From positions 124,001-188,000 of the forward strand of contig NZ_BNCK01000005.1 in the NCBI RefSeq assembly GCF_014656435.1: a DNA stretch of 64,000 bases. Direction: 5' to 3'. Position 1 is the first letter of the stretch. Each line of letters opens with the position of its first letter. Below the pieces are notes generated by a model. The model had not been told where the DNA came from. It searched no databases and was given only the letters and a program-made list of their open reading frames with translations. This DNA comes from Thalassotalea marina. Its GTDB lineage: Bacteria; Pseudomonadota; Gammaproteobacteria; Enterobacterales; Alteromonadaceae. Both the position numbers and the translations under genes were made by a program. Positions 8,196-45,537 of this stretch are shown in pieces.

Positions 8196-8221
8196 TTTTT
8201 TATAACCTTTATTTTGCACAG

Positions 8222-8911
8222 TCAGCTCAAAACCAATAGTGCGAGGGTTTTATCATCTGTGTGATTCGGTGTACCCCAGTTCCTAAATTCGTTTTTTAAC
8301 CAAGTCTTAGCTTGTCTAATACTCTTGCCCTTAGTGCTTTGAACAATCGAATTTGCAAAATCCAGCTCCATGCCTTGGTTTAAGTCTTCACTAATGCCAT
8401 CGGTCATTAGCGCAATCACATCGCCTAAACTCAATTGCTGCTGCGTTACCTGCCAGTCAGAAAACTGTTTAGATTTACCTAAGCCTGTAGTGATGTTGCC
8501 AAAATCATTTGTATCCGAATGCTCAGTTATCTGTTGCGAAGTTAAAATTAAACCGTCACCTAACTGAAAAGTTCTTAGCTTTCCGCTATCAGAAACCCAG
8601 GCAATCAAACACGTTGTCACTGCATCGCTAGCTTTAATATCGCCAAGCGAGTTCAACCACTTTTGATAAACCCGCTTGATAAGTGCTTTACTTTCAATGC
8701 TGAAATCAACTGCCCTAATCACATCAAATGCAGCTCGACATGCTTGTTTTGACCCCACATCCGAATGAGGCTTAGACCCCATACCATCACAAACAACAGC
8801 GAGCCAACCACTTGGCACCCTTTTTACAAGCGCTGAATCTTGATTGGGCTGACCATTGAGTAAATGACCAGGCCCAATGACAGAAACACTTAGATAGCGA
8901 ATACTTACCAT
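8222..8911 (-). CDS. PP2C-family protein phosphatase (TerY-P type)
   Basis: A 229-residue PP2C-type Ser/Thr phosphatase. Metal-binding residues can be seen in the early NQD (Asp25), the hallmark CDGMG at 41-45 and the later ALMTDGISED block; a C-terminal TDDKTL supplies the usual last aspartate. The protein is a bare catalytic domain, slightly shorter than many PP2C enzymes, with no membrane segment. It presumably reverses phosphorylation by the kinase encoded just downstream, within the vWA-phosphatase-kinase triad. The start ATG lies inside the last codons of the vWA gene (7-bp overlap), so the two are translationally coupled. Confidence 0.9.
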   Translation of the reverse strand: MVSIRYLSVSVIGPGHLLNGQPNQDSALVKRVPSGWLAVVCDGMGSKPHSDVGSKQACRAAFDVIRAVDFSIESKALIKRVYQKWLNSLGDIKASDAVTTCLIAWVSDSGKLRTFQLGDGLILTSQQITEHSDTNDFGNITTGLGKSKQFSDWQVTQQQLSLGDVIALMTDGISEDLNQGMELDFANSIVQSTKGKSIRQAKTWLKNEFRNWGTPNHTDDKTLALLVLS

Positions 8912-9597
8912 TGGCCTTCTAGATCTAAGCCTAAATCGTCGTCATCGTTGCCTAACTCATCAAAGTTAATCGGTACGAGTTCGTTAGGGGTTCTACTCTG
9001 AGAGCGTGCTGTTACGCTCATGGTTACCGCTCTAAAGAAACGGTGAATATCTCTGGCTTCATTGGCTTTAAATACTGGCGCTTCTAAGTCATTGTTAAAT
9101 GCTTCAAGTACATCGATATTCGCTTCAGCCCCTATCGCCATTGCAAAGCGACTGGCTTTTTGACCGCGTTCACTCGTGGTTAAACGTTCTAAACCTGCTT
9201 GCCAACTGTCGGTTGGAATACCGTCAGAAAGTAAAATTAGTACAGGACGATAATCGCGGGATGTGATCAGTTCTTTATCTTCAAGCACCTCAGTCGCTAA
9301 TTCGAACGCATGACCCATCGGTGTGCGACCAATCGCATCAAGTGGCTGCATAGCTTCTATTTCAGATGCTTTAGCAAGTGGTAGATGCATTTCAGCCTTA
9401 TCACCGCCAAAGGTGATTAAGCCCACTTGAATTTCAGCTTGTCGAGCTGACTCTTGTCTAAAGGTCGAAACCATGTTTTGAACGGCTTCATTTAGGGCTG
9501 CGATCTTACCGTCTACCGACATACTGCCACTGGTATCCGCTAGAATAATAACAGGGAGTGCTCTAGCTTTTGCTACTGCGAATTTCTTTAAACTCAT
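8905..9597 (-). CDS. TerY-like von Willebrand factor A domain protein
   Basis: A 230-residue protein that is almost entirely a vWA domain with a complete metal-ion-dependent adhesion site: DTSGSMS at 21-27, the threonine in GRTPMGHAFE, and the aspartate in LILLSDGIPTDSW. It resembles TerY-type soluble vWA proteins, which bind divalent metal and partner proteins. The tail (after ~205) is acidic (GNDDDDLGLDLEG) and is probably disordered; it could be a phosphorylation or docking site. It opens the kinase-phosphatase-vWA triad and overlaps the PP2C gene by 7 bp. A tellurite function should not be assumed: no TerB, TerC, TerD or TerZ-type gene is in the window. Confidence 0.9.
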   Translation of the reverse strand: MSLKKFAVAKARALPVIILADTSGSMSVDGKIAALNEAVQNMVSTFRQESARQAEIQVGLITFGGDKAEMHLPLAKASEIEAMQPLDAIGRTPMGHAFELATEVLEDKELITSRDYRPVLILLSDGIPTDSWQAGLERLTTSERGQKASRFAMAIGAEANIDVLEAFNNDLEAPVFKANEARDIHRFFRAVTMSVTARSQSRTPNELVPINFDELGNDDDDLGLDLEGQW

Positions 9598-9644: not shown

Positions 9645-9980
9645 TTAATGTAAATGTTTGTGGCTATGCTTGAATGGACGGATCTTTCTTAGATCTTTAT
9701 TTCGGAAGGCTGTCAATACTGTTCCATTCGAGGACATAACAAGCTGGATTCCATTCATAGCTTTTAGCTCAGGTTTAATTGAGCCATATTTTTCAATTTC
9801 TTTATTCCCAATCACATAGTAGGTTGCACGTCTTGCGTGAATAACACGACCATATTGATAAGCCAGCATCACCTGCTTTTTAGATATCCCTCTTTGTCCT
9901 TCTCTTATTTGCGCGTGTTGGCTATTTGTTAGGTCTGGTATAACAAATAATCGATCTTGCTCTTTAACAATAAAGGCCAT
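9645..9980 (-). CDS. Small protein resembling DUF4258/BECR-fold family
   Basis: A 111-residue protein at the head of the operon, 47 bp before the vWA gene and preceded by a GAGGAAAA ribosome site. The pattern (SQHAQ with His22, RGISKKQV at 30-37, a beta-hairpin segment and the C-terminal MSSNGTVLTAFR) recalls DUF4258 proteins. Those are assigned to the BECR fold of small ribonuclease toxins. The tail is basic and His-rich (KHSHKHLH). I am not certain of the family: the match is by eye to a short pattern. If correct, it could be an RNase effector or a regulatory component. It might also be an unrelated small gene in the cargo. Confidence 0.5.
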   Translation of the reverse strand: MAFIVKEQDRLFVIPDLTNSQHAQIREGQRGISKKQVMLAYQYGRVIHARRATYYVIGNKEIEKYGSIKPELKAMNGIQLVMSSNGTVLTAFRNKDLRKIRPFKHSHKHLH

Positions 9981-10167: not shown

Positions 10168-13100
10168 TTACTCATACTTAATTGCAATATATGAATCATG
10201 ATTTGCAGCTTCTAACTTAAACGACCATTTTCTGACTGCATCAGCTTGACCAAATTCATCTTTAGTAAAATCAAAAGTGTTAAACCGGTATGGGTAACGT
10301 GTAGCCCAATAGCCCATCCCTTGATCAAATATGATCTTGACTTCACTTCCATCTTTCAGTTTTAAGAGTAAAAATCGACCATGTGGGAGATCCTTTGGCT
10401 CTGAAACTTCGGGATATACCGTTATTCCAAAGTTTTTACTAACCTGTGTATAAAAGTAAGGCTGATCAGAATGATTTTGCCAATTATCAGCAACACACAC
10501 AGGTGTTCTATTATCACGATCTCTTTTCGGGTATGCAGAGTAAAGCTCCAAATCAAATTCATTTGTTTTTTCTTTGATTGCAGCAACAAAGTTAATTATT
10601 AAGAATGAGCTTAAGGGAGAGACTAAGAACTTATCATAATAATAAGCACTCTCTATACCACATAATAATTTTCCTAAAAGACTATCGTCATGCTCTGATA
10701 TAAATGCTAATAGGTTGCTGCCAAAAGATTGGACATTGCAATTTAATCTTGCGCCTACGTTATCTATAACGGTTGCAGAGGTTAAAGATGACTGGCTTGA
10801 TATATTGTCAAGGTTGACCAGTTCAGCAACTAGTTCATTGCTACTTGAAAGGGTTGATTTAACAATAAGTGTATCTAACGGCTCACCCCAAGTTTCATTT
10901 GGGAAACAAGCATTTTTATCTAGCGTTCCCCAGGATTGAACGCTTTCACCTTTAATGACATCAAATAACATATGTCCACTTTCGATAGGTAGAACATCAT
11001 ACTCACTCGCATACCACTTAATACCCGGAACAAGATCTTTTTGAATGCTCCAAGCGATATCTGGCTGAAAGTTTTCAAGGTATTTTCTTTCGATATAAAT
11101 AGAGACATCTAAATTAGATACTGCAAGTTGATTAATCCAATTCCTATACTTCCACTCAGGCCAATCCCAGTCCTGTATGTCTCCACCAAGATATATTCGT
11201 ACACCTGTAACATCTGTATCTATAACTTTCGATATTAATAAGGACATTCTGTCCATTTCTGCTAAGGTGTCATTACCAAACAACCTCAGTTCATTAGGCA
11301 ACCTTAACTTTTCAGTAAATTGAGAAGTTACCAAGAAATCATTAGCATAAACTCGATCTAAGTTATCAATTTCATGTTGTGTATCATAATCCAAAAGGCA
11401 TGCGTGACACGCTCCTTCACACCCTTTGTTGGTGCATGTCTCTAGGTAAGTCTTCGCTTCTTCTATTACTTCGGTAAAGTTATTTAATATTGATGTTGAA
11501 AAACCAGCTCCTTGTGAAGCCATATCATATAGAAATAAGCTTGTAGCTTTTAAACCACCACTTTGAGTTACATCACGAACAGCAACCCCTAACTCATTAG
11601 TTGTAATGCCAGCATGTTGAGCAAGTATTGTTCTTATCGCGACTCCAAGGGTATACATTAATTTAGAGTCAAATATAGCATTACCTGTACTTGGGTCATT
11701 AATTTGTATTTCGAAAATACTAGTTTGAACATCATGCCCCAACATAAATGGATGCGTCACTTTATTATCGATACCAAATTTACTTTGTTTGATGGCCCAA
11801 GAGTTGTCAGAGCCTTGGCAGTAAATACTGTTATCTACACTAGTACCCTGCAACCTTTTATGCTGTTTAGTTAATTTAGAAACACCCCCGTTGTTATCCA
11901 AAGCTTCAGCTCTACCGCAACACAAGCAAAGCGCATAACCTGCACCATTACCCGCATTATAATGAAACAGCTTTCCATTATCATTTGTCCGATATCGACC
12001 AAGCTCAGGGTTAGGTAGATGTTGCCAAGTAGCGTCTTCTAAGGATATTTTGGGCTCTTTGAATGGCAAATATTTGGGCTGCGTATAATCATTATGTAAT
12101 GGCGTACTATAATCGACAGTAAACCCTGACGGAACAATATATTCCTGCCATGTAATATCACTTGAACAACACTCAGGATTTGTACAATATTCAGGCTTAG
12201 TTAAAGAAGTACTTGTAGTGTGGCACTCATTACACTCCCAAGAAACTCGGAATAGCTGCTGTTCAGTAATTTCATTTTCACTAAACGGCATTTTCCAATT
12301 TAATTGCAAGCCTTGTGATTGATAGACAACGCTGTCCAATACAATTTCCGCACCTGGTGCATATTCCCTTAAAGCTACATCCAAACTTCGACTTGGATAG
12401 CCTCTTCGCTGGAATTTATTTTGTTTACTACCAACTGAATTCCGATTTTCTTTACTATCTTTACTGTTCGTTACAAGCGCAACAACGCCTGTAGGGAAAC
12501 CATACCCAGGTAAAAAACCACTTCCCGATAGTTCAGCTAACAAGTAATTTTCTTTTAAACGTTTTAATTGACCTGATAGTTTCCTTAGAGCTGCCTCACC
12601 AGCACCCGTGCTATCACAACGGCTCAATTGAAAACTTAAGGATTCATATTCTTTCATCCACTTATCACAAGATTCGAGCATTTCTTCCTGAACCATTGAA
12701 ACTAATCGTTTACATTCATAAAGGGAAAATACGGTTTCAAATCGCAGTTGAGATATACCTCCAAGTAACCTTTTATCAGTGAGCGCATCTGTTGAGCACC
12801 AATCTTGGAATTGTTGAATGACTGATTTTCCACCAGCTTCAGGCTCAAGAAAAAATGTACCTGCATGCATTTTCAAAATACTCTCATCTCTTTGATAAAT
12901 GGACATTAAAAAAGTTGAAAGTACTAGTGAATTGATATGCCTTAATACTAGAGGTTTACTATTTAGTGAGACAATAGGTACATTGATTGGTGTTTCAAAT
13001 GGCCATTTTGGGTAGGAGAATACACGTTCACCGTGTGGGGTAGATTTACAAAACGTTAATGCCATAGCAGTTGACTCTTGCCTACGACCAGCACGACCAG

Positions 13101-16100
13101 CTCTTTGTAAATAGTTCGCGGGACCAGGAGGAACATTATTCATAACAACCATTGAAAGGGAGCCTATATCAACCCCCATCTCCATCGTTGTTGAACAACT
13201 TAAAATTTGTATATTTCCAGATTTAAAGGCATTTTCTAATCCAGCTAAACGCGAACTTTGTTGTTGGGCAGAGTGCTCTGCCGCACGTATTAAGCTAACC
13301 CCCTCAAGAATACGGTCATTCAAATCACTCCAGTAACCTTGCTCCCTACCTTTTTCAATAAACTCTTCTGAAGTTAAATCATCTATCTTTGTACAGTACT
13401 CAAATCGTTCATCTTCATTTGGCAAATAAGGAGAGATACCTTTTAATGTAGTATCTAAAATTCGGCTAGTGTAGGGACACAACCAACCTTTAGTCATTAA
13501 TTGAGGAGCGGCTACCTTTTCAAAATTTAAGCGATAACCTCTATCTTTATAATCTTTAATTAATATATGTGTTTCTAGAAGTTTTTTCCAGGCATCCTCC
13601 AGCACATCATTGAATACTATACAGTTTTCTTTTGGGTTTAATCCTGTCGCTTTTGCCAACATTCGAACCAATCGATGCAGACTTCCTATTGGCTTAGCTA
13701 TAGGCCAATTACGTAGTGCTTTCTTTTCTATTTCATCTTTTGGTGAGTCATCAGAGCTAATTAGACTTCGAGGCATGATTCGTGCCCCCATCCAGTTCAA
13801 ATAATACTTGGGTATATCAACAAAGGTATTCTCACGAATCCAAAAATCTACACATATTTTTAGGAAGTCTTTCCAATCATCTAGGTTATTCAACCCTATA
13901 CTTCGCCATGACTGAGGCTCTTCGTTGATAGCATCAATAGCAGGATATGTTAATGCTACAAGCCCCATTGTTTCCAAACTATTTTGCGTCTTTGGTCTAC
14001 GAGCAAACTCTCGATATAAGAATAGTCTTGCTAAATTTTTTGGATCTGAAAGCAGTGATTCTTTATCTGCATATTCGCCTGTTTGTAACTGACCTTTTTT
14101 ATCATCTGTTAGTTCAGCTTCTATCGCACCAGAAAGTAACTGAACTTCATCAGTACTTGATAACTGCTCTACTAAATCAAACCACGAAACTGATGAGGTA
14201 TTTGATATTGAATCACGGTACTTAGGGACAGCATTCATGATCTCTTCGTCTGTTTTCCCCATAGACTTCAGAGCATCTATGATCCCCTGTGTCGATTCAT
14301 CCAACTCATTTTGTTCACTCAAATTTGCCAAACGGTGATAAACATAACTACGGACAAAGTTTCTCTCTGAGTCAAGTTGCATTTTTGCTGAAAAACGAGC
14401 CGTACCTTGTCGGCTATCAGTAAAAGTTATCATTCGTTTACCACGAAGATCTTTTACATCATCACTTTTTCCTGGGGCGTGTTCTAACATAGTAGGTACA
14501 ACAGTCCCCATCAAAAATGGTGCGCCAAGTATTGCTCGCTTAAAGTTCGTACCTGTTTGTTTTTCAACTTTCTCACAACAAGCACAACGTAAACCATCAT
14601 GATCATCGTTTGTAATAATGCTAATCGCGTGGCTACCATCTTCATAAGCAGATGAAAGTGCCATTGTTTTGAAGTTTAAATACCTAATTCCCTTTTCTGA
14701 TTTTAACGCAGAAAAGATTTGAGCATGCTTAGTCATTAGAACTTCACTTTCTGGCTCTTCTTGCTCTGAATCATCTAGTTGCATCTCGACTTCATCAGCA
14801 TAATCATCAAGTAACTCACCAATTCTTACACTTAATTGTCTCTTACCTCCAGATACAACTAATTCTTCAGCATTTAGAGAACTTGTTCCACATCCAGAGC
14901 AATGAGCCAACTCAAATACTGGTGCACCACAATCACAATGCCGCATCTCTTCAAGGTAAACTTTGCCAAATTCCCAACCACTTTCTAGCAAAGTGCCTTT
15001 TTTCTCAGGACACTGGTTATCAATACAGCTCCAAATCCCCTTTTGTGCTCGATGGAAAAAATGTGCTCTAACAGGTAAAAATGCCTGGGGATCACCATAC
15101 TGCCTCGAATATGCTTTCGCCATTAAATCAATCAGTAACAGCGCTTTTCTCTTATGATTAGTGGTTAACTTATTTTCCATCGGCCAAAGGACTTTAGCTA
15201 TATCAACTAAATTCATGGGCCTTTTCGTTAACTTTATTCTTAAACTTTTAGCTACTGGTGAGCTAGATAAGTAACTAAATAACTCTCCGCTATCTAATGA
15301 AGATGCATATTCAATATCTAGCTTCGCGGTAGAATCATTATCTTTTATAGCAGGGATTAACCTATCGCCATTAACTACATGAATTTGTGTTGTCTCAATA
15401 CCAGCTAGCTTCGCTAAGTAAGCCTTTAACTGCTTATTTGTTTCTTTTTGATTATTTTTATCACCAATTGTGGCTGATGTTGCCACGAAACGAACATCTC
15501 TAGGGTTTACTTTAAACGCGTGCATCACACGCGTTAACAATAAGGAAATCTCTGCTGCTTGCGACCCTACATAAGTATGTGCTTCATCTAATACTATCCA
15601 TTTGAGCTTACCTTCAGATTGCTGAATTATTGGTTGGTCTTCCTGTCTAACCAGCATGTATTCAAGCATTGTTGCGTTGGTTAACAGTATTGGTGGGGGA
15701 GTATTTCTAATAATCTCTCTATATCTAACCCTCTCAGGCGTATCTGCTTGCTCTTTCCTTAATATGTCTTTTTTAGGAGGCTTAGTATCAGTATCGCCAT
15801 TGTATAAACTATATTTAATTTTACCTTCAAATCCTCTTGTCCAAGAACTTAAACGCTCTCGTTGAGAATTTATTAGTGCATTTAATGGGTATAGAAAAAG
15901 TGCCTGTACCCCAACTAAATCATCTTCAGACTCTTCAGCTTGTTTTGCTAAATCGTTTAATAGTGGCACAAGGAAACACTCCGTTTTACCAGAACCGGTA
16001 CCACTTGTCACAACTACCGACTTAACATCATCATCCATTAAATAATCCCAAGCTTCTAATTGATGTTGATATGGTGGTCTAGCTTCTGGCCATGAATAGT

Positions 16101-16446
16101 CTTCCTTAATATCATTACAATACCGAGAAGCATGCTCCTCTTTGTAATCCTCTTTTTCAGCTGGTTTTGGCAATGGTGGGGTTGTTAAGTTATTAAAAAA
16201 AGAAGTGGATAATTTTTTCTTTTCAACTAAGTCTAACAGCGATGACTTTGATGGATTCCAACCAAACATTGCCTCAAAAATAGGATCTGCCAAAAGACTA
16301 TTCCCTTCTCCAAATCTTGCTGATAACTCTTGGTGAATATAGTTACGCAGAGATGAGTTTCGTAACCTCATTTTGCTCAATATTGCTTGAGAGCTTCGCT
16401 CACAAATATCTTCGTATAACTCAGTAAACGGAATATTCTTAGTCAT
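10168..16446 (-). CDS. druE: Druantia-type DruE: giant DEAH helicase with DUF1998-like C-terminus
   Basis: A 2092-residue helicase. Walker A TSGTGSGKT is at 147-155, DEAH at 287-290 and the SAT motif in FVATSATIGD. The second RecA domain has STTMEMGVDIGS and the arginine-finger motif VI YLQRAGRAGRR. Several CxxC-type zinc clusters lie in the middle (for example around HCDCG...HCSGCG), and near residue 1690 there is CTNKGCEGACHACLLDYD, the cysteine signature of DUF1998/MZB domains. Size (~2000 aa), helicase type and DUF1998 C-terminus match DruE, the hallmark of Druantia anti-phage systems; the single large partner upstream fits type III. The gene follows druH by 4 bp, so the two form one unit driven by the upstream sigma-54 promoter. 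Other DUF1998 helicases (DISARM, Dpd, MrfA) are alternatives, but they are usually much shorter and have other neighbours. Confidence 0.82.
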   Translation of the reverse strand: MTKNIPFTELYEDICERSSQAILSKMRLRNSSLRNYIHQELSARFGEGNSLLADPIFEAMFGWNPSKSSLLDLVEKKKLSTSFFNNLTTPPLPKPAEKEDYKEEHASRYCNDIKEDYSWPEARPPYQHQLEAWDYLMDDDVKSVVVTSGTGSGKTECFLVPLLNDLAKQAEESEDDLVGVQALFLYPLNALINSQRERLSSWTRGFEGKIKYSLYNGDTDTKPPKKDILRKEQADTPERVRYREIIRNTPPPILLTNATMLEYMLVRQEDQPIIQQSEGKLKWIVLDEAHTYVGSQAAEISLLLTRVMHAFKVNPRDVRFVATSATIGDKNNQKETNKQLKAYLAKLAGIETTQIHVVNGDRLIPAIKDNDSTAKLDIEYASSLDSGELFSYLSSSPVAKSLRIKLTKRPMNLVDIAKVLWPMENKLTTNHKRKALLLIDLMAKAYSRQYGDPQAFLPVRAHFFHRAQKGIWSCIDNQCPEKKGTLLESGWEFGKVYLEEMRHCDCGAPVFELAHCSGCGTSSLNAEELVVSGGKRQLSVRIGELLDDYADEVEMQLDDSEQEEPESEVLMTKHAQIFSALKSEKGIRYLNFKTMALSSAYEDGSHAISIITNDDHDGLRCACCEKVEKQTGTNFKRAILGAPFLMGTVVPTMLEHAPGKSDDVKDLRGKRMITFTDSRQGTARFSAKMQLDSERNFVRSYVYHRLANLSEQNELDESTQGIIDALKSMGKTDEEIMNAVPKYRDSISNTSSVSWFDLVEQLSSTDEVQLLSGAIEAELTDDKKGQLQTGEYADKESLLSDPKNLARLFLYREFARRPKTQNSLETMGLVALTYPAIDAINEEPQSWRSIGLNNLDDWKDFLKICVDFWIRENTFVDIPKYYLNWMGARIMPRSLISSDDSPKDEIEKKALRNWPIAKPIGSLHRLVRMLAKATGLNPKENCIVFNDVLEDAWKKLLETHILIKDYKDRGYRLNFEKVAAPQLMTKGWLCPYTSRILDTTLKGISPYLPNEDERFEYCTKIDDLTSEEFIEKGREQGYWSDLNDRILEGVSLIRAAEHSAQQQSSRLAGLENAFKSGNIQILSCSTTMEMGVDIGSLSMVVMNNVPPGPANYLQRAGRAGRRQESTAMALTFCKSTPHGERVFSYPKWPFETPINVPIVSLNSKPLVLRHINSLVLSTFLMSIYQRDESILKMHAGTFFLEPEAGGKSVIQQFQDWCSTDALTDKRLLGGISQLRFETVFSLYECKRLVSMVQEEMLESCDKWMKEYESLSFQLSRCDSTGAGEAALRKLSGQLKRLKENYLLAELSGSGFLPGYGFPTGVVALVTNSKDSKENRNSVGSKQNKFQRRGYPSRSLDVALREYAPGAEIVLDSVVYQSQGLQLNWKMPFSENEITEQQLFRVSWECNECHTTSTSLTKPEYCTNPECCSSDITWQEYIVPSGFTVDYSTPLHNDYTQPKYLPFKEPKISLEDATWQHLPNPELGRYRTNDNGKLFHYNAGNGAGYALCLCCGRAEALDNNGGVSKLTKQHKRLQGTSVDNSIYCQGSDNSWAIKQSKFGIDNKVTHPFMLGHDVQTSIFEIQINDPSTGNAIFDSKLMYTLGVAIRTILAQHAGITTNELGVAVRDVTQSGGLKATSLFLYDMASQGAGFSTSILNNFTEVIEEAKTYLETCTNKGCEGACHACLLDYDTQHEIDNLDRVYANDFLVTSQFTEKLRLPNELRLFGNDTLAEMDRMSLLISKVIDTDVTGVRIYLGGDIQDWDWPEWKYRNWINQLAVSNLDVSIYIERKYLENFQPDIAWSIQKDLVPGIKWYASEYDVLPIESGHMLFDVIKGESVQSWGTLDKNACFPNETWGEPLDTLIVKSTLSSSNELVAELVNLDNISSQSSLTSATVIDNVGARLNCNVQSFGSNLLAFISEHDDSLLGKLLCGIESAYYYDKFLVSPLSSFLIINFVAAIKEKTNEFDLELYSAYPKRDRDNRTPVCVADNWQNHSDQPYFYTQVSKNFGITVYPEVSEPKDLPHGRFLLLKLKDGSEVKIIFDQGMGYWATRYPYRFNTFDFTKDEFGQADAVRKWSFKLEAANHDSYIAIKYE

Positions 16447-16450
16447 TGAC

Positions 16451-19400
16451 CTAATCCTTGGAAATTAAAAAACTAGCTTGAAGAGCCAAGCTATACGCTT
16501 TATGAACCCACTCTCTATCCTCAGATAGTAACCTGGAAATTGCGACTTGTAAGAAACGACCAAACGGTTTATAACTCACAGGAAAGTCATCTTCTGAATC
16601 TAAATGCCCTGCGGCCCAGTAAGCGGTCAGTACTGGTAATTCCAACATGAAAAATTGATTTTTATATACATGCTCTGGAAGAGTTTGACTTATCAACAAG
16701 CAAAATAGCTTTTGAGGCAATACGGCTCTCATCAAATTTGGTTTTAGTTCGTGCCTGAATTCTTCATCTTTTCTAGCAGATTGAATTCTACAAATAAACT
16801 TGCCATTTTGGCGTTCGAACAATTCTTTTTTTGCCATATGAAAGGAATCAAATTGGTTTAATTTCCAATCATCATTGTGATTTTTAATCCAGTCACATGT
16901 TTTACCAGTTTTCTTGTATCTCAGAATATCAGCGATCGTTGCAAAGCCTTCACCTTTAGAGGATAGCTTTTCCAAAAAGTCTTCTATCTGCATCATCATT
17001 AGTTGTTGCGACAAAACAACATCGAGCCCTAAAGAAGAAACGTCACGTTCTATCCTAGCTATAAGACTATCCATAGCTGAGTACCAATGCTCTAAATCTA
17101 AACAAAACCAACTAAAAGGAAGCTGATTTTGTAGTTTCCAAACATCTTCAAACCATTCTTGCTCTGACTTTCTAAACAGTAACAATGCAAAAAGCTTGGG
17201 GTAATTAACCATATGAATAAATACATTAAATGTATTAGCTCTAACCAAGCTCAAAGCATCAATAAATATTTCTAATTCATTCCAAGCTTTGTGAGTCGGG
17301 TCTTGTTCCATTAGTCTTAAAACATCGTGAAACCATTTCAAATCATTACTTTTAATCGCACAAGATAATGTTTCATCGAAATCAACATTTTCACCAAAAA
17401 CCGTCACTACAGTAGGTTGAACTTTATGTTCAGGATCTGCAAAAACAAGCCAAGGACCAGTCTGTAAATCCTTAGGAACGACAAAAGACTTTCTGTTCTG
17501 TTCGTCATATTCAACATCCATAACAACTTCACTTTCATTGAGTTTCCACATTGGGCGAAGCTTTAAATTGATAGAATCTGGGTGTTTATGAGCATGGATA
17601 TTGCTGATGAAGAACTTTTCCTTGCTCCTTCTTTCATTAGAAACAGGAATAGCCAAATGTCTATCAGGGAATATTTTTGCTAAGTTACTACTGTACCCCA
17701 AAGCCTTATTTTCCACACGAAAACTAATAAAGTCCCATGTATCATCAGACTGTGCATACAAGGTATTAGCTAGTTTAATTAGTACCTGACAATCGATAAG
17801 CATTACAGGAGATATTTCAACATTTCCAAAACGTAAATGCTCATTTAAAGAAACTTTGATTTCATCACGCTGTTCTCCTCTGTTTTCCTTAATCAATACA
17901 GCATTAATCTTAAACCCCCAAATCGCACTTTCATTGTCACAAACAACTTTTAATGAGCATCGGTATAAATCATCAATACATGTTCGTTGATACTTTGTAA
18001 CAGGGCGTCCCGTATGTGAAATAAGGCAGAGGCCATTTTGGCCTGTGGGAATTTCAAAAGATAATGACCCCGAATTGGGCCAGCGTAAGTCAGCACTGAC
18101 AGAAGCGGCAATACCATTAGGCAACTGAATATCGAGTCTTTGTCCTAAAATAGCTGGCTCAACACTCCTTAGCCAACGTTCCTGAGATTGGCATAAAGCA
18201 ACACCATCATTTTTAAAATTAATGACATTGACTTCAAGTCTACCTGTGGCATTTAGGTGATGAGTAAAACTAGATTTTTCCGGAATAACATTCAAGTTTG
18301 ACTGCCAAAGTATGTCACCATCTTTACTCCAGATAACATTACCTCGACCAAATACATTATCAGCCTGCCATGCGCTAACTTTATCTTGCTCTTTGCTTTT
18401 CCAAAATAACTCTTCTACTGGAATCTCAGCAATATTACCGTCTAGGTTGGATAAAAGTGTTGGAAGTCCTTTATAAACTTTGTCATCGACAGCTAATGGT
18501 TCTAAAGAACCTTTTACCTGACACAAAACTACATTAGTACTAACGCAATCAGTAATAACTTTAAATGAACCATGAATAGTTGATACTTTCGCACTTCCAT
18601 ATACTTCATAAATCGATCGTTCAGAACCTGCAATAGTACCAACATGCTCGACTGTCGATAATGCATTTGAAGCCACAGGCTCTGCTGTAGAAACTATGTA
18701 TACTTTTTCATTATGACTTTTTACTGAACCCTGCCCAACGAACATCAAGCCTTTAGAAGCTGAAGCGAAAATCCAAGGCATTTCATTTGATAATGCCTCA
18801 CCTCGGTAGTAGATATTTGACGTTAGCTTTTTATCTTCACTCCATAACTCAAAACTTAGTTCATTTTGTGCTGGTTCTCCAAAGTAATTGACAGTTTTTC
18901 GAGATACTTGCCAACGTTCTGCTCCATCCGTTTTTAAATTAAAGGAAGCTGATAATTTTCTTTCGAGTGTCGAGCTTATGGAGTACATGTCAAAAAACTT
19001 AGGTAGCTCTGTATTTTCCAGTTGCTCATTAAGATCATCAGGATTTATGGTTGCATTTAAATGTATCAGCGCTTCTATATGCCACCCTTCTTGTCCCTCA
19101 CGTAAAAAGCGTGTAACTCTAATAGGATGCTTTTCTCTTTTTACAATGCTAGAAGCTCTTCTAAGTAATACTCGCATTAACTCCGTTGCTTCATCATCAT
19201 CCAAGAGAAACTTTAAATCGTTCTTCCATTTAGGTTTTTTAGCATCCAATTCCAACACAGGATCTTTTACAGCATAAAGGTGGTGTTCATCCCTTAACAA
19301 AATAAGATCGTCTAATAAGGATGCAGCTAGTTTAGCCAAGGAATCTTGCTGTAAGCTTTTCGGTAAGTTATGCAGGGATTCGGCCGCTAGTTCATACGAT

Positions 19401-19942
19401 GATTTACTAAGGTGAAAACGGCTATATTCTTCAATTAAGTTGATAAGATATTGTCTTAAATGAGTTTCATTTTCTCCTGTTAATATTGCTCTTGGAAACC
19501 CCCCTTGACAAAATAAAGTAGCGAAATACTCATCTCTAGTGGTATCAAAAATAGTCTGTTTCCAGGAATCTAAACCTCTTTCCACAGCTCCTCGAACGGA
19601 TGACTGATAATAAGGGCGGTAATCCCTAATACCTAAACTATCGAAAAGTGGTTGCCACTTATCTCTTCCACCACCGTAATTTCTTTGTAGCCATGTTGCT
19701 GAATACAGAACAAACAATTTATCAAATATAATTGAAGCGTTAAAAACGACGCTAGGTGACTTCCCCCCCAGCATATTCTTTAGTTTTAATCGAAGAGAAG
19801 TAAGCTCTTCATCCGTTACTTTATAGGCCCAAATTGGTTTACCTAAAAGGCTTTGGCGTGGTGAAACATCTAGGAATTCTCTTTCCCATTGTTGCAAATC
19901 GCAAATACCAGTTAACGGTTGGGTTGAACTAGAAATATTCAT
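16451..19942 (-). CDS. druH: Druantia type III-like DruH, large protein of unknown fold
   Basis: A 1163-residue protein read from ATG 19942, chosen because AAAAGGAGGT lies 9 bases upstream; an ATG eight codons earlier would overlap that ribosome site. No enzymatic motif can be recognised by eye. The middle (~400-800) is rich in beta-strand-like stretches and the C-terminal third looks helical. The identification rests on context: a ~1150-aa partner immediately before a ~2100-aa DUF1998 helicase is the gene plan of Druantia type III (druH-druE). DruH function is not known to me. It is the first gene after the sigma-54 promoter at 20072-20087. A profile search against DruH would settle the name. 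Confidence 0.72.
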   Translation of the reverse strand: MNISSSTQPLTGICDLQQWEREFLDVSPRQSLLGKPIWAYKVTDEELTSLRLKLKNMLGGKSPSVVFNASIIFDKLFVLYSATWLQRNYGGGRDKWQPLFDSLGIRDYRPYYQSSVRGAVERGLDSWKQTIFDTTRDEYFATLFCQGGFPRAILTGENETHLRQYLINLIEEYSRFHLSKSSYELAAESLHNLPKSLQQDSLAKLAASLLDDLILLRDEHHLYAVKDPVLELDAKKPKWKNDLKFLLDDDEATELMRVLLRRASSIVKREKHPIRVTRFLREGQEGWHIEALIHLNATINPDDLNEQLENTELPKFFDMYSISSTLERKLSASFNLKTDGAERWQVSRKTVNYFGEPAQNELSFELWSEDKKLTSNIYYRGEALSNEMPWIFASASKGLMFVGQGSVKSHNEKVYIVSTAEPVASNALSTVEHVGTIAGSERSIYEVYGSAKVSTIHGSFKVITDCVSTNVVLCQVKGSLEPLAVDDKVYKGLPTLLSNLDGNIAEIPVEELFWKSKEQDKVSAWQADNVFGRGNVIWSKDGDILWQSNLNVIPEKSSFTHHLNATGRLEVNVINFKNDGVALCQSQERWLRSVEPAILGQRLDIQLPNGIAASVSADLRWPNSGSLSFEIPTGQNGLCLISHTGRPVTKYQRTCIDDLYRCSLKVVCDNESAIWGFKINAVLIKENRGEQRDEIKVSLNEHLRFGNVEISPVMLIDCQVLIKLANTLYAQSDDTWDFISFRVENKALGYSSNLAKIFPDRHLAIPVSNERRSKEKFFISNIHAHKHPDSINLKLRPMWKLNESEVVMDVEYDEQNRKSFVVPKDLQTGPWLVFADPEHKVQPTVVTVFGENVDFDETLSCAIKSNDLKWFHDVLRLMEQDPTHKAWNELEIFIDALSLVRANTFNVFIHMVNYPKLFALLLFRKSEQEWFEDVWKLQNQLPFSWFCLDLEHWYSAMDSLIARIERDVSSLGLDVVLSQQLMMMQIEDFLEKLSSKGEGFATIADILRYKKTGKTCDWIKNHNDDWKLNQFDSFHMAKKELFERQNGKFICRIQSARKDEEFRHELKPNLMRAVLPQKLFCLLISQTLPEHVYKNQFFMLELPVLTAYWAAGHLDSEDDFPVSYKPFGRFLQVAISRLLSEDREWVHKAYSLALQASFLISKD

Positions 19943-19950
19943 AAACACAC

Positions 19951-19960
19951 ACCTCCTTTT
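19951..19960 (-). promoter_or_regulatory. Strong ribosome binding site of druH
   Basis: On the minus strand AAAAGGAGGT ends 8-9 bases before ATG 19942. It is close to a perfect anti-16S match and decides the druH start over the upstream ATG at 19966. Such a strong site suggests high translation once the gene is switched on. Confidence 0.85.
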
Positions 19961-20071
19961 ATGCATTTATCAAATGCAGCAAGCAGATGTAACTCAGGCC
20001 ATTTGGTTTGGATGTGCTCAAAATTCATTGATTGCTTCATTCCTTATTATTCCTTGTGTCGCTTCCTATAT

Positions 20072-20087
20072 GGCAAGCACAATGCCA
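20072..20087 (-). promoter_or_regulatory. Sigma-54 (RpoN) -24/-12 promoter for druH-druE
   Basis: On the minus strand the sequence TGGCATTGTGCTTGCC matches the RpoN consensus TGGCAC-N5-TTGC at the invariant GG and GC with the exact required spacing, and also at the flanking T, CA and TT. The expected transcription start is near 20061, giving a leader of about 120 bases before druH. The element begins 10 bp after the stop of the sigma-54 activator gene, which is the arrangement expected for a promoter controlled by that activator. Confidence 0.85.
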
Positions 20088-20096
20088 AATTCTAAA

Positions 20097-21605
20097 TTAT
20101 TGCTCTTTTTCATTTTGAATCCCCAATCGCTTCATCCAATTTGTTAGCGTTTGATGGTCTTTTAAGCCCAACATTTGGGTAGCGTGTTTCTTAACATTAC
20201 CGCTTGCTTTCAATGCTGCTTCAACATACTTTTTTTGATAATTTTCAGTTAGTTGAACTATATCCACTTTATCGTTAAAAGACAGCCTAACATCATTATT
20301 TTGCTCATCAAGTCTTCTATTTATGATCGCGTCTGACAGTTCCTTTTCACCTACCAATTTTGCATCTGTCCAGAGAAAAGCTCTGTTCAATGTGCTCCAT
20401 AATTCACGAATGTTACCTAACCAAGACTGAGATAAAATAAATTTAATTCCATTTTCGGAAACTTTTTTACTTACATAGTCTGGATGTTTGGACCCCGACT
20501 CATTAATTTGGTCTGTCAGCTGTTCAACTATGACTGGAATATCTTCAAGTCGATCTCTAAGTGGTGGCATATTGATAATGCCCACCGCTAATCGATAAAA
20601 AAGATCTTCACGAAAATCTCCTTGTTCAATCAAAGAGGTCAAATCTTGGTGAGTAGCAGCAATAACGCGCACATCGACATTAATGGTTTTTATATCACCA
20701 AGTCTGGTAATTTCACCTTGCTGTAATGCTCTTAGAAGCTTAACTTGTATATCAGGCTTTAATTCTCCAACTTCATCTAAAAATAAGGTTCCACCGTTAG
20801 CTTGCTCAAATAGACCTGCATAATCTTTATCTGCGCCAGTAAACGCCCCTTTTTTATGTCCAAACAGTGTTGAATCAACTAGATTTTCAGCAAGCGCACC
20901 ACAGTTTACGACTCTTATAGGCTTGTCGCCTCTCAGGCTACCTTTATGGATAGCATTTGCCATTAGCTCTTTACCAGTACCTGTTTCACCTAAAATAAGG
21001 GCAGGAACTTCAGAAGCGGCTATTCTCTTTGCCTTTTCAACCACATCAGTCATTGTTTTTGACTTGGCAGTTAAATCTGAAAACGCCTTTTGTACCTGTG
21101 GTAATGAGGTCGCCGTATGTGCAATGTTCTTCGAGGCAGACCTAACGTATTCTTTACCGAAATCCAGTGGTATTTCGACTTCTTCAATAACGTTATTCGG
21201 GGACGATTGCACAAAGCGTGTATTGGACTTTCCCTTTCCATGAAGCACTGAAAGCGTTGTCATGGCAGGTGTGCCAGAAGTTAGGTTAATTGAGAGCCTG
21301 TCTGACTCTTCAGATAACTTTGTGATCCATTTTTCTGTTTCGATTGAAATAGACTGGTAGTCAATCGGACTTTGGATTTGCGCTAAGTGGATTTTGATAT
21401 CATTAGAAGGACGGCTAATCATCGCCATCCGCTTTTTCAGGAAGCGCTCAAACGAATCCCACTTAGCTTCATCTTTGTTGGAAAGAATAACTATTTTATC
21501 AAATGGAACTTCAGATTTTGTCGCAAGTGAAACAATAGCAGCGTTCTGCTCCTGTTCCATGTTTTCAATATCGCGATTACCAAGCCACGTAAAAAGTGTA
21601 TGCAC
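20097..21605 (-). CDS. Sigma-54-dependent activator with CARF-like sensor domain (RtcR-like)
   Basis: A 502-residue bacterial enhancer-binding protein, starting at GTG 21605. Residues ~1-155 look like a CARF-type Rossmann sensor: the opening TLFTWLGNRD strand-loop and NLTSGTPAM at 107-115 are the kind of ligand-loop signatures seen in CARF domains and in RtcR. The AAA+ domain has Walker A GETGTGKE (206-213), the sigma-54 contact loop GAFTGA (253-258) and Walker B LFLDEVGEL (274-282). The C-terminus (MLGLKDHQTLTNWMKRLGI) is a Fis-like helix-turn-helix. CARF domains bind cyclic oligonucleotides or, in RtcR, RNA-derived ligands. It lies just upstream of a sigma-54 promoter and the Druantia genes, so it very likely switches them on. 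The ligand is unknown. Confidence 0.9.
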   Translation of the reverse strand: MHTLFTWLGNRDIENMEQEQNAAIVSLATKSEVPFDKIVILSNKDEAKWDSFERFLKKRMAMISRPSNDIKIHLAQIQSPIDYQSISIETEKWITKLSEESDRLSINLTSGTPAMTTLSVLHGKGKSNTRFVQSSPNNVIEEVEIPLDFGKEYVRSASKNIAHTATSLPQVQKAFSDLTAKSKTMTDVVEKAKRIAASEVPALILGETGTGKELMANAIHKGSLRGDKPIRVVNCGALAENLVDSTLFGHKKGAFTGADKDYAGLFEQANGGTLFLDEVGELKPDIQVKLLRALQQGEITRLGDIKTINVDVRVIAATHQDLTSLIEQGDFREDLFYRLAVGIINMPPLRDRLEDIPVIVEQLTDQINESGSKHPDYVSKKVSENGIKFILSQSWLGNIRELWSTLNRAFLWTDAKLVGEKELSDAIINRRLDEQNNDVRLSFNDKVDIVQLTENYQKKYVEAALKASGNVKKHATQMLGLKDHQTLTNWMKRLGIQNEKEQ

Positions 21606-21698
21606 TGTCCAATTGCTTATTTTTATTCATTTGTAAATAACTTTACATTAAATAAAATAATTTACTAGATTAAAAATCTTCTTATCCCTTTAAATTAT
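21606..21698 (-). other. AT-rich spacer between tniQ module and regulator
   Basis: A 93-bp gap, very AT-rich, that separates the transposition genes from the cargo regulator. It presumably carries the activator's own promoter. No GG/GC sigma-54 element, terminator hairpin or TnsB-like repeat is seen. Confidence 0.3.
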
Positions 21699-23129
21699 TT
21701 AAGTTCTGATATGCCTTCTTTGTCTTAATATAGCCTTAGGCAATACCTTATTTAACAAGCTCTTCTCATGTTTAAACAACCACATATAAGCTGCATTCTC
21801 AGCTTGCTTAATCTGATTTCGCGTAAAGCTTGGGTTGTCTCTGATACACTTTTCCAATACTGCCAGCATTTCATCTCGTTTGGCTTTATACCTAATCCTA
21901 GCTCTCAACTCTTTGACTTCTGGGTAGCACTTGAGTACTTGTTCCACAGCTCCCTGAGAAATCCCCAAATCCGTTGCAATATCTTCAGTTGGTTTACCTA
22001 TGAGTAGCTTCCGCCAAATAATTCGTCGCTCTTTGTCGAAAACCTTACTAGGACGAGTAGCTATAGGGACTTGATATTGAATCGCCCTTGCTTTTAATGT
22101 TGCGATAGATACACCTGCTGACGCAGCTACCTTTCGAAGGCTTTGACCATTGATAAGCTGGTTAATAAAATAGGACCAATCCAGCTCTACTTTTACCGAT
22201 TGATTGTTAGGCAAGGCATCACAAGTGTGTTCCGAAACTATGAATTTTTTTAAATGCTCCCAACTGTCAAATAAAGAGAAGATAAATGCAAAATGCTGCA
22301 TAGGGTGATGCTGAACACTTCTTTGATAAAGTAAACACTGAGGAAAATAATCCTTCTGGACTTGGTGATAGAGTGTTCGAAAATGCTGAGTTTTATCACT
22401 TAGCCTCTCTAAGCATTTTTGAACTAGCTTGTGTAGCGTTGCCTGCCTAACACGCCCACACTGCGTGAGCAAACCAAGCTCTCTCAAACGATCCCAATAC
22501 GCATTATATAATTCAGGTAAATGGATATCGCAATTGAGGTCGTGTAGTTCAGATGCCAGTAAAGACGAAAATCGATATTCTTCACCGTCAAATACTTCTA
22601 CATTTAGATTTTTATTTAGCTTAGGTAAAAGCAATTTTATTGGAGAGCACACTTCGCTGTTCAAAATGCACTTATGCTTTGGACACGATAATACCCCTGT
22701 AATTTGATGCTCCAAATGCCAATATGTGGTCCCGTAAGTATCAATATTTTCCTTCATACATAAGGGGCAAGATTTCAACTCCTTTCCATACGTGAATCTA
22801 CTTGCCACTATTCCTAATTGACTCTGTAAACTTTCTGTTTTACCCGTTCTGAGTGAGTCATAAAGCCTTAAGCACATGTCAGGCGATAAAAATGGTTCGT
22901 AATAATGAAAACTCGTCATCTGGTTAATAAGAGTGGGCATATCAATCCCACTTAATCCTTCAAACTCATTCAAAAATGATGGGAATTCGTTATTGGGGCG
23001 AGAACCATTTATTTTAAACAACTTCAATGTATTGCCTTTAAATGAAGCTTGAGCAGAAGCCAGGTGAAATCGGCAAAGCAGGCTATAAACAGTTTCATCG
23101 GGTAAAGGCTTTGGGAAAAAAGAATACAC
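21699..23129 (-). CDS. tnsD: TnsD/TniQ-family target-site selector (476 aa)
   Basis: The larger of two TniQ-family proteins in the module. It starts at GTG 23129 (weak ribosome site). The N-terminal TniQ domain opens with FFPKPLPDETVYSLLCRFH and has a zinc finger with Cys121, Cys124, Cys149 and His152 (CPLC ... HQITGVLSCPKH). The C-terminal half has helix-turn-helix-like segments (SLRKVAASAGVSIATLKARA near 335 and DIATDLGISQGAVEQVL near 380), consistent with recognition of a fixed attachment site, as TnsD does at the end of glmS in Tn7. Length is close to Tn7 TnsD (508 aa). It lies 11 bp after the shorter tniQ gene. The chromosomal site it recognises cannot be read from sequence alone. Confidence 0.88.
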   Translation of the reverse strand: MYSFFPKPLPDETVYSLLCRFHLASAQASFKGNTLKLFKINGSRPNNEFPSFLNEFEGLSGIDMPTLINQMTSFHYYEPFLSPDMCLRLYDSLRTGKTESLQSQLGIVASRFTYGKELKSCPLCMKENIDTYGTTYWHLEHQITGVLSCPKHKCILNSEVCSPIKLLLPKLNKNLNVEVFDGEEYRFSSLLASELHDLNCDIHLPELYNAYWDRLRELGLLTQCGRVRQATLHKLVQKCLERLSDKTQHFRTLYHQVQKDYFPQCLLYQRSVQHHPMQHFAFIFSLFDSWEHLKKFIVSEHTCDALPNNQSVKVELDWSYFINQLINGQSLRKVAASAGVSIATLKARAIQYQVPIATRPSKVFDKERRIIWRKLLIGKPTEDIATDLGISQGAVEQVLKCYPEVKELRARIRYKAKRDEMLAVLEKCIRDNPSFTRNQIKQAENAAYMWLFKHEKSLLNKVLPKAILRQRRHIRT

Positions 23130-23140
23130 AGGACCGTGCT

Positions 23141-24016
23141 CTAGCGATTTTCTAACCAGTAATAAAGAGCCAACCAGTACACATAATTTCTAACACCATG
23201 ACTTTTATGCTGGCCCGCAAACATCGTTCTCAGTATATTGATACTTCCTCTCTCTGTTGGTCTGGCAAAATCCCTAAAAAGGTATCTTAATAACTTATCG
23301 CCCAATACTTTTTCGAAATCCACATTCAATTCCTGACATACCTTCAATCTCCCCGCACGCTTTGAGACAGGCAAATTTAGCCTGGATACAATGTTATCTT
23401 TTAAATCCCATAGCGGTATTTGTAACGATGCATCAGCTTCTAAATATGAATCAATAAAATCCTGCCATGATATGATCGTACTAGAAGGCTCTATCACTAA
23501 AGGCGACCAATTCATATTCTGATGAGGCAACTGTTCATAATACAAATTTTTGATTGATGGGTTTGCAGTCTGAAGCACACACCTGTGTTTGTAACATCTA
23601 AAACTACTGGTTATTTGATGCTTCGCATGCCAAAAACTAGTCCCATAGTGGTTTAAATCTTCTTCTCTGCAATCTGCGCAGCTATGCCAGTCTGTTGAAA
23701 ATGAGAACATCTGTTGCTCATTCATATGCGTGTAAAAGGATATTAATTTTTCTAATTCAGATACGGGCTTTCCAGTCGATATTTGCCAAGGTACTAGTGA
23801 TAGATTATTGGAATAAACACCATGATTAGTTTCTAATAATTTATAGAGTTGAGATGTTGTGTCGCAAAATATTTTGTTGGCCGTTATGCCTCGATCAAAA
23901 ATGCCTCGCCGCTTTTGAAAAGATAGAAAATCGTCTTCTCCTGATGCTAAATAACTCCGTAACATCCATGAAAAAGTATGTTCACCAGGCAATATCTTAC
24001 AATGAGGCATACTCAT
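23141..24016 (-). CDS. tniQ: Short TniQ-family protein (291 aa)
   Basis: A second TniQ-type protein, overlapping tnsC by ATGA and therefore translationally coupled to it. The N-terminal CKILPGEHTFSWMLRSY and the zinc finger Cys113, Cys116, Cys141, His144 (CADC ... HQITSSFRCYKH) are typical of the family. It stops at 291 residues and lacks the C-terminal DNA-binding repeats of the neighbouring 476-aa paralogue. It could be a TnsC-loading adaptor working with the longer protein or with an unlinked selector. A degenerate, shortened target selector is the other possibility, although the frame is intact and gene spacing normal. Confidence 0.87.
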   Translation of the reverse strand: MSMPHCKILPGEHTFSWMLRSYLASGEDDFLSFQKRRGIFDRGITANKIFCDTTSQLYKLLETNHGVYSNNLSLVPWQISTGKPVSELEKLISFYTHMNEQQMFSFSTDWHSCADCREEDLNHYGTSFWHAKHQITSSFRCYKHRCVLQTANPSIKNLYYEQLPHQNMNWSPLVIEPSSTIISWQDFIDSYLEADASLQIPLWDLKDNIVSRLNLPVSKRAGRLKVCQELNVDFEKVLGDKLLRYLFRDFARPTERGSINILRTMFAGQHKSHGVRNYVYWLALYYWLENR

Positions 24017-27656: not shown

Positions 27657-28479
27657 GATTAACCTCACAACCTAATTGCTCAAGAGATAACTCATACCTT
27701 AATTTAATAGAAGATAGGTTTGCTTTAATATGCTTATTCCAGATACAAAACTGGCAAATCTCAACAGACTCTTGATAACTGATACCGAGCTCTAAAGCGA
27801 TTGCTGTGACTAGCTCGCTCAAACGTTGCTTTTTATAACTTAAACCGTTGCTAAACAGTTGTAGCCATCTCGGATGAAATATTTGTAACTTTACGGTAAG
27901 AGAGCATGAAGGAAAAAGTTGCTCTAAATTTTGGGCAAAAATTGTTTTTATTTGCTCACTCAATATAAGATACCAAGTTGCCCCTTTCGATTCCCAAAAC
28001 GCCTTTTCTATTTTTAATTTATTGTCTAAATTTTTTCGCTGAGCTTCTGATAGATTTTTAAAAGCCTTTGTGTCTTTTATCGAGTATACAACTAACTTCC
28101 CAGACAAAGTTTTACACACAAAGTCGCTTGTCATTACGACTTCTACACTTCGTGAATATGGATATGTTGGATAACGAACCCCTAATTGCTTAGCGACACC
28201 GATGACTCGCTCAAGCGGCAGCAAAGGATACTGTTCTTTAATCGATACAAACTTCTTTGAAAAACGTAAGCGGTAAAAAAACATTCTCTCATTAGTAGAT
28301 AATAAGTCTCGATCTTGCCCTCGCTCTTCAAAGTCGGGGGTTCGCGATTTGCTACCCATTGATTTTATATCTTGAGTGGTAATAAAGGAGTAATAAAGAC
28401 GACTCTGTTTATTTAATTTTTCAAACTTACGAACCCAGCCATCGCGCACCTCTCTGGTAATATTTTGACGTCTCTTCAT
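27649..28479 (-). CDS. tnsA: TnsA endonuclease
   Basis: A 276-residue TnsA nuclease that cuts the 5' ends of the element, making transposition cut-and-paste. The restriction-enzyme-like active site is visible: Glu82 (SIKEQYPLLP), Asp119 (VVMTSDF) and Lys135 (VYSIKDTK), equivalent to E63, D114 and K132 of Tn7 TnsA. The C-terminal part fits the TnsA winged-helix TnsC-contact region. It is the first gene of the module and is preceded by a 27-bp palindrome and a 470-bp AT-rich non-coding stretch. Confidence 0.93.
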   Translation of the reverse strand: MKRRQNITREVRDGWVRKFEKLNKQSRLYYSFITTQDIKSMGSKSRTPDFEERGQDRDLLSTNERMFFYRLRFSKKFVSIKEQYPLLPLERVIGVAKQLGVRYPTYPYSRSVEVVMTSDFVCKTLSGKLVVYSIKDTKAFKNLSEAQRKNLDNKLKIEKAFWESKGATWYLILSEQIKTIFAQNLEQLFPSCSLTVKLQIFHPRWLQLFSNGLSYKKQRLSELVTAIALELGISYQESVEICQFCIWNKHIKANLSSIKLRYELSLEQLGCEVNRG

Positions 28480-45341: not shown

Positions 45342-45353
45342 CTTCAGTTAAGT

Positions 45354-45530: not shown

Positions 45531-45537
45531 CGTTTTA

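Follow-up and report, generated by a model that had tools for sequence, protein, structure and literature searches.

A CARF-AAA+ activator with a conserved sigma-54-like promoter behind its gene: a candidate control cassette for Druantia III and Type I restriction

We analysed 64,000 nucleotides (nt) of the genome of Thalassotalea marina, hereafter the window, in which the gene of an RtcR-like activator is followed on the same strand by druH and druE, the genes of a Druantia type III defence system. The activator joins a CARF domain to an AAA+ sigma-54 interaction domain and a C-terminal helix-turn-helix (HTH). Directly behind its gene lies a -24/-12 element that is conserved in homologous loci, and this conservation makes it a credible sigma-54 promoter. 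We propose, with a probability of about 0.78, that activator and promoter form a portable, ligand-gated control cassette that would drive the adjoining defence operon.

Part of this was foreseen. RtcR relatives were predicted to act as sigma-54 activators of neighbouring restriction-modification (R-M) genes in Makarova 2014 (PMC4012209), and the prediction was extended in Bell 2024 (PMC11090510) to superoperons in which the RtcR homologue stands before R-M, Druantia III and CoCoNuT genes. A preliminary description of the window knew of no described ligand-gated sigma-54 switch for Druantia; in view of these two publications, the switch cannot count as undescribed. What is new is the promoter motif with its fixed place, the cargo junction described below and a copy of the promoter without an activator; none of these was found in the searched text of PMC11090510, PMC12458937, PMC13192584, PMC4012209 and PMC8649781 (supplements outside the search).

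The activator and the element behind its gene

The activator has 502 amino acids (aa) and a GTG start. It matches Sigma54_activat in Pfam (8.4e-67), with a Csm6 CARF match below the cut-off and a weak Fis-family HTH_8 match over residues 457-481. RtcR_PspF2 is its best RtcR model in PADLOC (600 bits over residues 1-497 of 502, against 252 for RtcR_PspF1 and 192 for RtcR). The translation holds GETGTGKE (Walker A), the GAFTGA loop and FLDE (Walker B), and the residues of these motifs, described as intact from the window alone, proved invariant or nearly so in an alignment of 50 sequences. An AlphaFold2 model of the whole protein, also built on 50 sequences, had a mean predicted local distance difference test (pLDDT) of 88, and its 50 listed matches in the PDB are sigma-54 activator structures.

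The CARF-like N-terminus suggested in the preliminary description was borne out by structural modelling. Modelled alone on 32 sequences, the domain reached a mean pLDDT of 94.7 and has six strands. Foldseek returned 60 PDB matches at E ≤ 0.001, of which the 50 listed are all of CARF type: they are Card1, Csm6, Can2, Cdn1, Cam1, Cami1, Csa3, ring nucleases and SSO1393, which we take to be CARF proteins. The best TM-score (0.77) was to E. italicus Csm6 in complex with a cyclic hexanucleotide, a protein also matched in a profile search (E 2.9e-4). A six-stranded Rossmann-like core is described for CARF domains in Makarova 2014 (PMC4012209).

The element (TGGCATTGTGCTTGCC) begins 9 nt beyond the activator stop, a position that fits a predicted transcription start near 20061. 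Within the window the motif is at chance level (13 occurrences with at most one mismatch, 15.5 expected). Hence, the evidence must be comparative. We collected homologues from two sources: whole-genome matches, restricted to those with a CARF-alignment E ≤ 2e-15 (32 stretches fetched), and contigs of named genomes (best 80 of 265 relatives). Together with the window they gave 113 loci. Of these, 24 were redundant, with an activator sharing at least 90% identity with a retained one, and 8 were short or unflanked, which left 81. Scoring covered a stretch of 160 nt per locus that starts 10 nt before the activator stop and ends 150 nt after it, with weights that we set ourselves from the -24/-12 consensus.

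A score of at least 20 was reached in 51 of the 81 non-redundant loci, compared with none on the antisense strand, none upstream of the activator and one inside its 3' end (81 stretches each); dinucleotide shuffles reached it in 38 of 2430 cases. The elements sit within 30 nt of the activator stop in 44 of the 51 loci. GG and GC are invariant among them, partly through selection by score, and the base 5' of TGG, which was not scored, is Y in 41. An earlier set of 33 loci, with redundancy kept, gave 20 matches to a strict pattern, whereas none of three positional controls had any (33 stretches each) and shuffles had 2/660, and 23 to a loose pattern against 3, 1 and 0 of 33 and 16/660. These counts, rather than the count in the window, lead us to reject a chance motif. 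The preliminary description had read a spaced -24/-12 promoter in front of druH-druE and had named the lack of a conserved element as one of the outcomes that would disprove its reading; this attempt at refutation failed. RpoN is encoded by the host. Synonymous-site conservation at the 3' end of the activator gene, next to the element, is high for this gene, with only 2 of 377 contiguous windows reaching the level of the last 35 codons, a weak signal given overlapping windows and six sequences.

Cargo of the cassette and the hsdR-druH junction

The next gene best matches hsdR in 49 of the 81 loci, and an hsdM match lies downstream in 43 of those. Elements scoring at least 19 are found in 38 of these 49 loci and in 14 of the 32 others. 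By these gene matches, the commonest cargo of the activator and its putative promoter is Type I restriction. The switch is not specific to Druantia: the promoter belongs to a cassette of activator and Type I restriction genes, in which druHE took the place of hsdRMS.

Druantia-like genes lie downstream on the same strand in 11 loci: the window, L089, L102 (same genome as L115), L104, L112 (Pseudoalteromonas rubra), L121, L123, L126, L127, L145 and L213 (the Pseudomonas luteola plasmid NZ_CP044084.1). They are not all independent, since L102, L112, L123 and L145 were dropped as redundant from the 81. The score is at least 20 in all except L112 (14.0), which has a loose match only, 162 nt past the stop. 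In most of the 11 loci Druantia comes after hsdR or hsdRMS; other genes come first in L089, and the Druantia matches in L089 and L104 are partial and weak. No hsdR separates activator and Druantia in the window and in L112, where a 189-aa gene precedes Druantia. Three Shewanella loci (L123, L126, L127) read rtcR-hsdR-druH-druE, with Druantia III directly after hsdR and neither hsdM nor hsdS between. DruH is matched by 10 plasmid records, in no case over 80% of its length, and the CARF domain by 5, the P. luteola plasmid being the only one in both sets. A Vibrio coralliilyticus plasmid carries the activator, an element (score 21.5) and hsdRMS. Among 147 relatives, DruH of this profile occurs in the genome of the window only.

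The window preserves the point at which cargo was exchanged. L101, L102 and L103, whose activators share 95, 92 and 91% identity with that of the window, all have hsdR next, and in the tree the window falls in their clade. After the promoter, the window enters the start of hsdR (MKQSMNFEHIQTKWPELHLLAAF), with 22 of 23 residues as in L101, and then switches to a sequence with the Shine-Dalgarno-like AAAAGGAGG and a druH ATG at 19942. The stop of the resulting 33-aa leader overlaps this start (ATGA). We moved the druH start to 19942 from 19966 because AAAAGGAGG precedes that ATG and is also found 5' of druH in L112, which makes 19942 the more likely start; the string GCATAAAAGGAGGT stands 5' of druH in both. 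From promoter to junction, the window shares 91-97% identity with five relatives, and these share 91-99.6% with one another. As an hsdR start is followed by druH with its own ribosome-binding site, druHE must have been joined inside the 5' end of hsdR, leaving the leader behind. On the sequence, this is the fossil of an exchange of cargo that put druHE in place of hsdRMS behind a kept promoter.

Table 1. Features of the locus. Positions are those of the window unless a fetched stretch (L009, L010) is named.
Feature	Position	Strand	Basis or remark
RtcR-like activator: CARF (about 1-156), AAA+ sigma-54 interaction domain (179-342), C-terminal HTH	20097..21605	-	Pfam, PADLOC, AlphaFold2, Foldseek
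Putative sigma-54 -24/-12 element TGGCATTGTGCTTGCC	20072..20087	-	9 nt past activator stop; expected start near 20061
33-aa leader open reading frame, truncated hsdR 5' end	19939..20040	-	22 of first 23 residues as in HsdR of L101
druH	16451..19942	-	PADLOC; start set on Shine-Dalgarno-like AAAAGGAGG
druE (DEAD helicase, MrfA Zn-binding domain)	10168..16446	-	Pfam, PADLOC
DUF4258-like protein, 111 aa; possibly BrnT-like gene	9645..9980	-	Pfam match below cut-off
TerY-like VWA protein	8905..9597	-	Domain match
PP2C phosphatase	8222..8911	-	Domain match
Ser/Thr kinase of TerY-P triad, CxxC motifs in tail (by eye)	6735..8219	-	Domain match
Superfamily 1 (SF1) helicase, candidate CnuH	3452..6730	-	AAA_11/AAA_12 domains
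Candidate CnuE	1962..3491	-	Weak below-cut-off wHTH match; RxxxxH (HEPN-like) motif by eye
Candidate CnuB, AAA domain, 806 aa in full	1..1962	-	Runs on left of the window
DUF2357 protein, candidate CnuC, next to candidate CnuB	L009:15701-17542		DUF2357 2.3e-6, over cut-off
AT-rich block 5' of rtcR, cassette edge	21606..21676	-	Common to close relatives over 50-71 nt (BLAST)
Tn7-like tnsA, tnsB, tnsC, tniQ, tniQ/tnsD, upstream of activator	21699..28479	-	Pfam; 7pik match for TnsB
gcvP (host gene; context)	30103..33003	-	Neighbour of window island and several related islands
WYL-domain gene in rtcR place, ~30-codon rtcR tail, sigma-54-like promoter, hsdRMS	L010:3374-7927 (contig C6)		Apparent regulator exchange at sister cassette

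Genomic setting, second promoter copy and signal

All genes of the locus (Table 1) lie on the minus strand, in the order gcvT-gcvH-gcvP, two small genes, tnsA-tnsB-tnsC-tniQ-tniQ/tnsD, activator, element, druH and druE, followed by a DUF4258-like protein, a TerY-P triad (VWA, PP2C, kinase), an SF1 helicase, the candidate CnuE, an AAA-domain protein and a DUF2357 protein. The adjacent druH and druE reported before are indeed present (DruH3 829 bits, DruE3 2141 bits in PADLOC). The locus is larger than its earlier bounds, 10168-21605, taking in the TerY-P and candidate CoCoNuT genes, and the druH start differs as said. VWA, PP2C and Ser/Thr kinase are all there, with the zinc ribbon of the kinase judged by eye; the candidate CnuB has general AAA matches and a coiled coil likewise judged by eye. 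By the published classification, the locus resembles Druantia III joined to a CoCoNuT of type II or III-A and led by an RtcR homologue. CoCoNuTs of these types comprise CnuB, a GTPase with a coiled coil, the McrC homologue CnuC, a UPF1-like CnuH with an SmpB-like domain at its N-terminus, and CnuE with a winged HTH and one HEPN domain (type II) or two (type III-A); a TerY-P triad is common in them without being core. A BrnT-like gene before CoCoNuTs is described in Bell 2024 (PMC11090510). A 6S RNA gene also lies in the window (45351-45534, plus strand; Rfam 57.7 bits).

Several known systems resemble parts of this arrangement. RtcR of the rtcAB operon has the same CARF-AAA+-HTH order, is a sigma-54 activator and matches RtcR in PADLOC; the protein of the window is a better match to RtcR_PspF2 (600 vs 192 bits) and has the putative promoter of defence genes behind it. 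Csa3, a regulator of CRISPR systems with a CARF domain and a winged HTH, likewise couples CARF to a DNA-binding domain; it is not known to have an AAA+ sigma-54 domain and is a structural match for the CARF domain only. In the superoperons of Makarova and Bell, an RtcR homologue leads and R-M or Druantia III genes, a TerY-P triad and a CoCoNuT come after it on the same strand, an order that the window shows with its candidate CoCoNuT genes. There, Type I R-M is almost always first (Bell 2024, PMC11090510), whereas druHE comes first in the window. As in other Druantia type III systems both genes are adjacent; here they are tied to a CARF-sigma-54 activator. RtcR, CARF and sigma54 do not appear in the searched main text of PMC13192584, published in 2026 on Druantia III of E. 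coli.

The cassette stands in a mobile setting. By BLAST, homology with close relatives stops 50-71 nt upstream of rtcR. Between gcvP and rtcR the window has a tnsABC and tniQ set, with TnsA, TniB/AAA and TniQ identified by Pfam and TnsB by its match to Tn7 TnsB (7pik, E 2.1e-25), without a Pfam or NCBIfam match. Upstream stretches of 3-10 kb or less show gcvP on the strand of rtcR in 13 of the 113 loci. These come from 10 genomes, since L103/L116, L099/L133 and L095/L137 each share one; the gap between gcvP and rtcR is 121-197 nt in 10 of these 13 rows (7 genomes). One genome, G790, has the order gcvP, small open reading frames, rtcR-promoter-hsdRMS, further genes and then tnsABC-tniQ genes. 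Three exact 14-nt direct repeats (TCGGAAGTGTCACT), 20 nt apart, occupy 29821-29874 between gcvP and the tns genes and are possibly transposase-binding sites of a Tn7-like end. No partner of these repeats was found in the 18 kb left of the window (L009), and no paired Tn7 ends. We found no publication on Tn7-like elements with gcvP. Homologues of TniQ and TnsB are also encoded upstream of rtcR-hsdR cassettes in two metagenome-assembled genomes, the former in Motiliproteus (L157) and the latter in Shewanella (L158). A search of viral contigs for DruE gave 5 stretches that matched the pattern, none of them a relative.

The genome has a second copy of the promoter. A genome-wide scan for TTTGGCAYTGNGCTTGC gave two exact matches, one in the window and one on contig C6, and ten more at 2 mismatches; a reversed control pattern gave 3. 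On C6, a 235-base-pair (bp) segment that is 89% identical to the window holds the last ~30 rtcR codons, the promoter and the beginning of hsdR, which is full-length here and has hsdM and hsdS after it (Pfam). This promoter has no full activator of its own, so that, if it is active, the activator must come from elsewhere. The activator of the window is the evident candidate and may act on it in trans. C6 is closer to L102 (95.6% identity) than to the window (92.7%), and C6 and L102 have an insertion in the rtcR tail in common, which speaks mildly for separate acquisition of the second copy. A more distant CARF-AAA+ activator of 481 aa is encoded on contig C2 (L011:3847-9724), at the 3' end of a gene group with a PLD-domain protein, a 369-aa protein and a helicase-like protein, which conjugation-like genes adjoin; no strict -24/-12 motif occurs near it in the 10 kb read.

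As for the signal, activation of RtcR was reported to depend on RtcAB (PMC9650030). The host genome has no match to RtcB, which was detected in 9 of 14 control genomes (RtcA was not searched for). RtcAB-dependent sensing is therefore unlikely, and we rejected it. Csm1 as a source of cyclic oligoadenylate was also rejected, its sole match being below the cut-off and with stops. A SMODS nucleotidyltransferase domain just over the cut-off (C2:692006-692419) is a candidate source of cyclic nucleotides. A loop in which the HEPN nucleases of CoCoNuTs make RNA ends for the sensor was proposed in Bell 2024 (PMC11090510).

Proposed mechanism and alternatives

In the cassette that we propose, the CARF domain would sense a nucleotide or RNA signal linked to infection, and the AAA+ ring would then remodel RNA polymerase-sigma54 at the -24/-12 promoter directly behind the activator gene. 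This would switch on the defence operon next to the promoter, here druH-druE, and transcription may read through into the TerY-P and CoCoNuT genes.

Several observations weigh against this proposal. The strand-4 motif of the CARF domain reads GTPAM, without the conserved positive residue (K/R) that follows strand 4 in classical CARF domains; Makarova 2014 (PMC4012209) takes such a loss as a hint of another ligand. At a threshold of 18.5 the controls are not empty (54 loci vs 6, 4 and 8 of 81, and 158 of 2430 shuffles). At the threshold of 20, 30 of the 81 loci fall short: 13 have, by eye, a one- or two-base variant at the usual place, and 17 have none. Eight of the 13 variants, from Marinobacter, Marinobacterium, Motiliproteus, Pontibacterium and Shewanella, are of TGGCACG type, with GA or GG at -12. 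We found no enhancer site: 6-nt inverted repeats occur 5' of the promoter in 31 of 51 loci and in 25 and 32 of 51 control stretches, with a small pile near -80 only. Near the 3' end of druH, before druE, the minus strand has a hairpin and T run that resemble a terminator (16493-16474). Finally, four other genomes among 369 of the class encode a DruH of this profile, and of four candidates scored in each of them the best match to RtcR_PspF2 scores as general sigma-54 activators do. The link to this activator is thus not general for Druantia III.

Element and activator could also be mere relics of a Type I restriction cassette, with druHE transcribed from a sigma-70 promoter of its own and the switch irrelevant. 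A leader made of a truncated hsdR start would fit such a history, as would the Shine-Dalgarno-like sequence that druH has in the window and in L112, and the Druantia genes of L112 that follow the same activator without an element at the usual place. We nevertheless consider it improbable, as the promoter core and the activator frame are intact, promoter and leader have diverged no more than they have among relatives, the activator remains 91-95% identical to those of three relatives, and no minus-strand sigma-70-like site reaches the scan threshold between 19942 and 20096. It is very unlikely that TGGCA-N6-TTGCC is a repressor operator (inverted repeat TGGCA/TGCCA) instead of a sigma-54 promoter. 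The element of the window does read as a 5-bp inverted repeat, but the base after the -12 GC is T in 23, G in 15, A in 9 and C in 4 of the 51 loci, so the repeat is not conserved, while the spacing of GG and GC is fixed and the adjoining protein has an intact sigma-54 interaction domain.

How far transcription from the promoter extends is a closer call. There is not far short of an even chance that it covers druHE only and that TerY-P and the CoCoNuT genes are transcribed from a separate promoter, located in the 187-nt gap at 9981-10167 or before it. No other gap between genes past the promoter is as large, a 9-of-12 sigma-70-like site lies on the minus strand inside druE (10691-10662), and there is the terminator-like site at 16493-16474. 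In addition, the related CoCoNuT genes of L118 are upstream of the activator. Yet the gap itself has no minus-strand sigma-70-like promoter or terminator-like site (the scan gave fewer sigma-70-like sites than shuffles did, 25 vs 39.7), and Bell 2024 (PMC11090510) reads such loci as superoperons, internal promoters allowed. In L118 (Colwellia sp. 39_35_sub15_T18), the order of modules is reversed: CoCoNuT-type genes that are 63-72% identical to those of the window stand, together with the kinase, upstream of rtcR-hsdRMS.

A wider version of the ligand-gated cassette, which we offer tentatively and rate on the doubtful side, would make the activator and its stop-fixed sigma-54 promoter a cargo-neutral induction socket, behind which mobile islands, several of which enter after gcvP, would exchange defence systems. 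One intact activator would run several sockets, here Druantia III/CoCoNuT and, in trans, the Type I restriction genes of C6, as one infection-induced regulon answering to an RtcAB-free signal.

If the proposed control is correct, a CARF sensor would induce, through sigma-54, many systems of the Type I restriction, Druantia III and CoCoNuT kinds, and their expression would not be constitutive. Such induction would help to explain how costly nuclease systems are carried safely. As a consequence of the same control, systems cloned without the activator and RpoN could look dead. The promoter motif fixed at the stop codon provides a simple sequence test for such control, and a ready reporter for finding the ligand.

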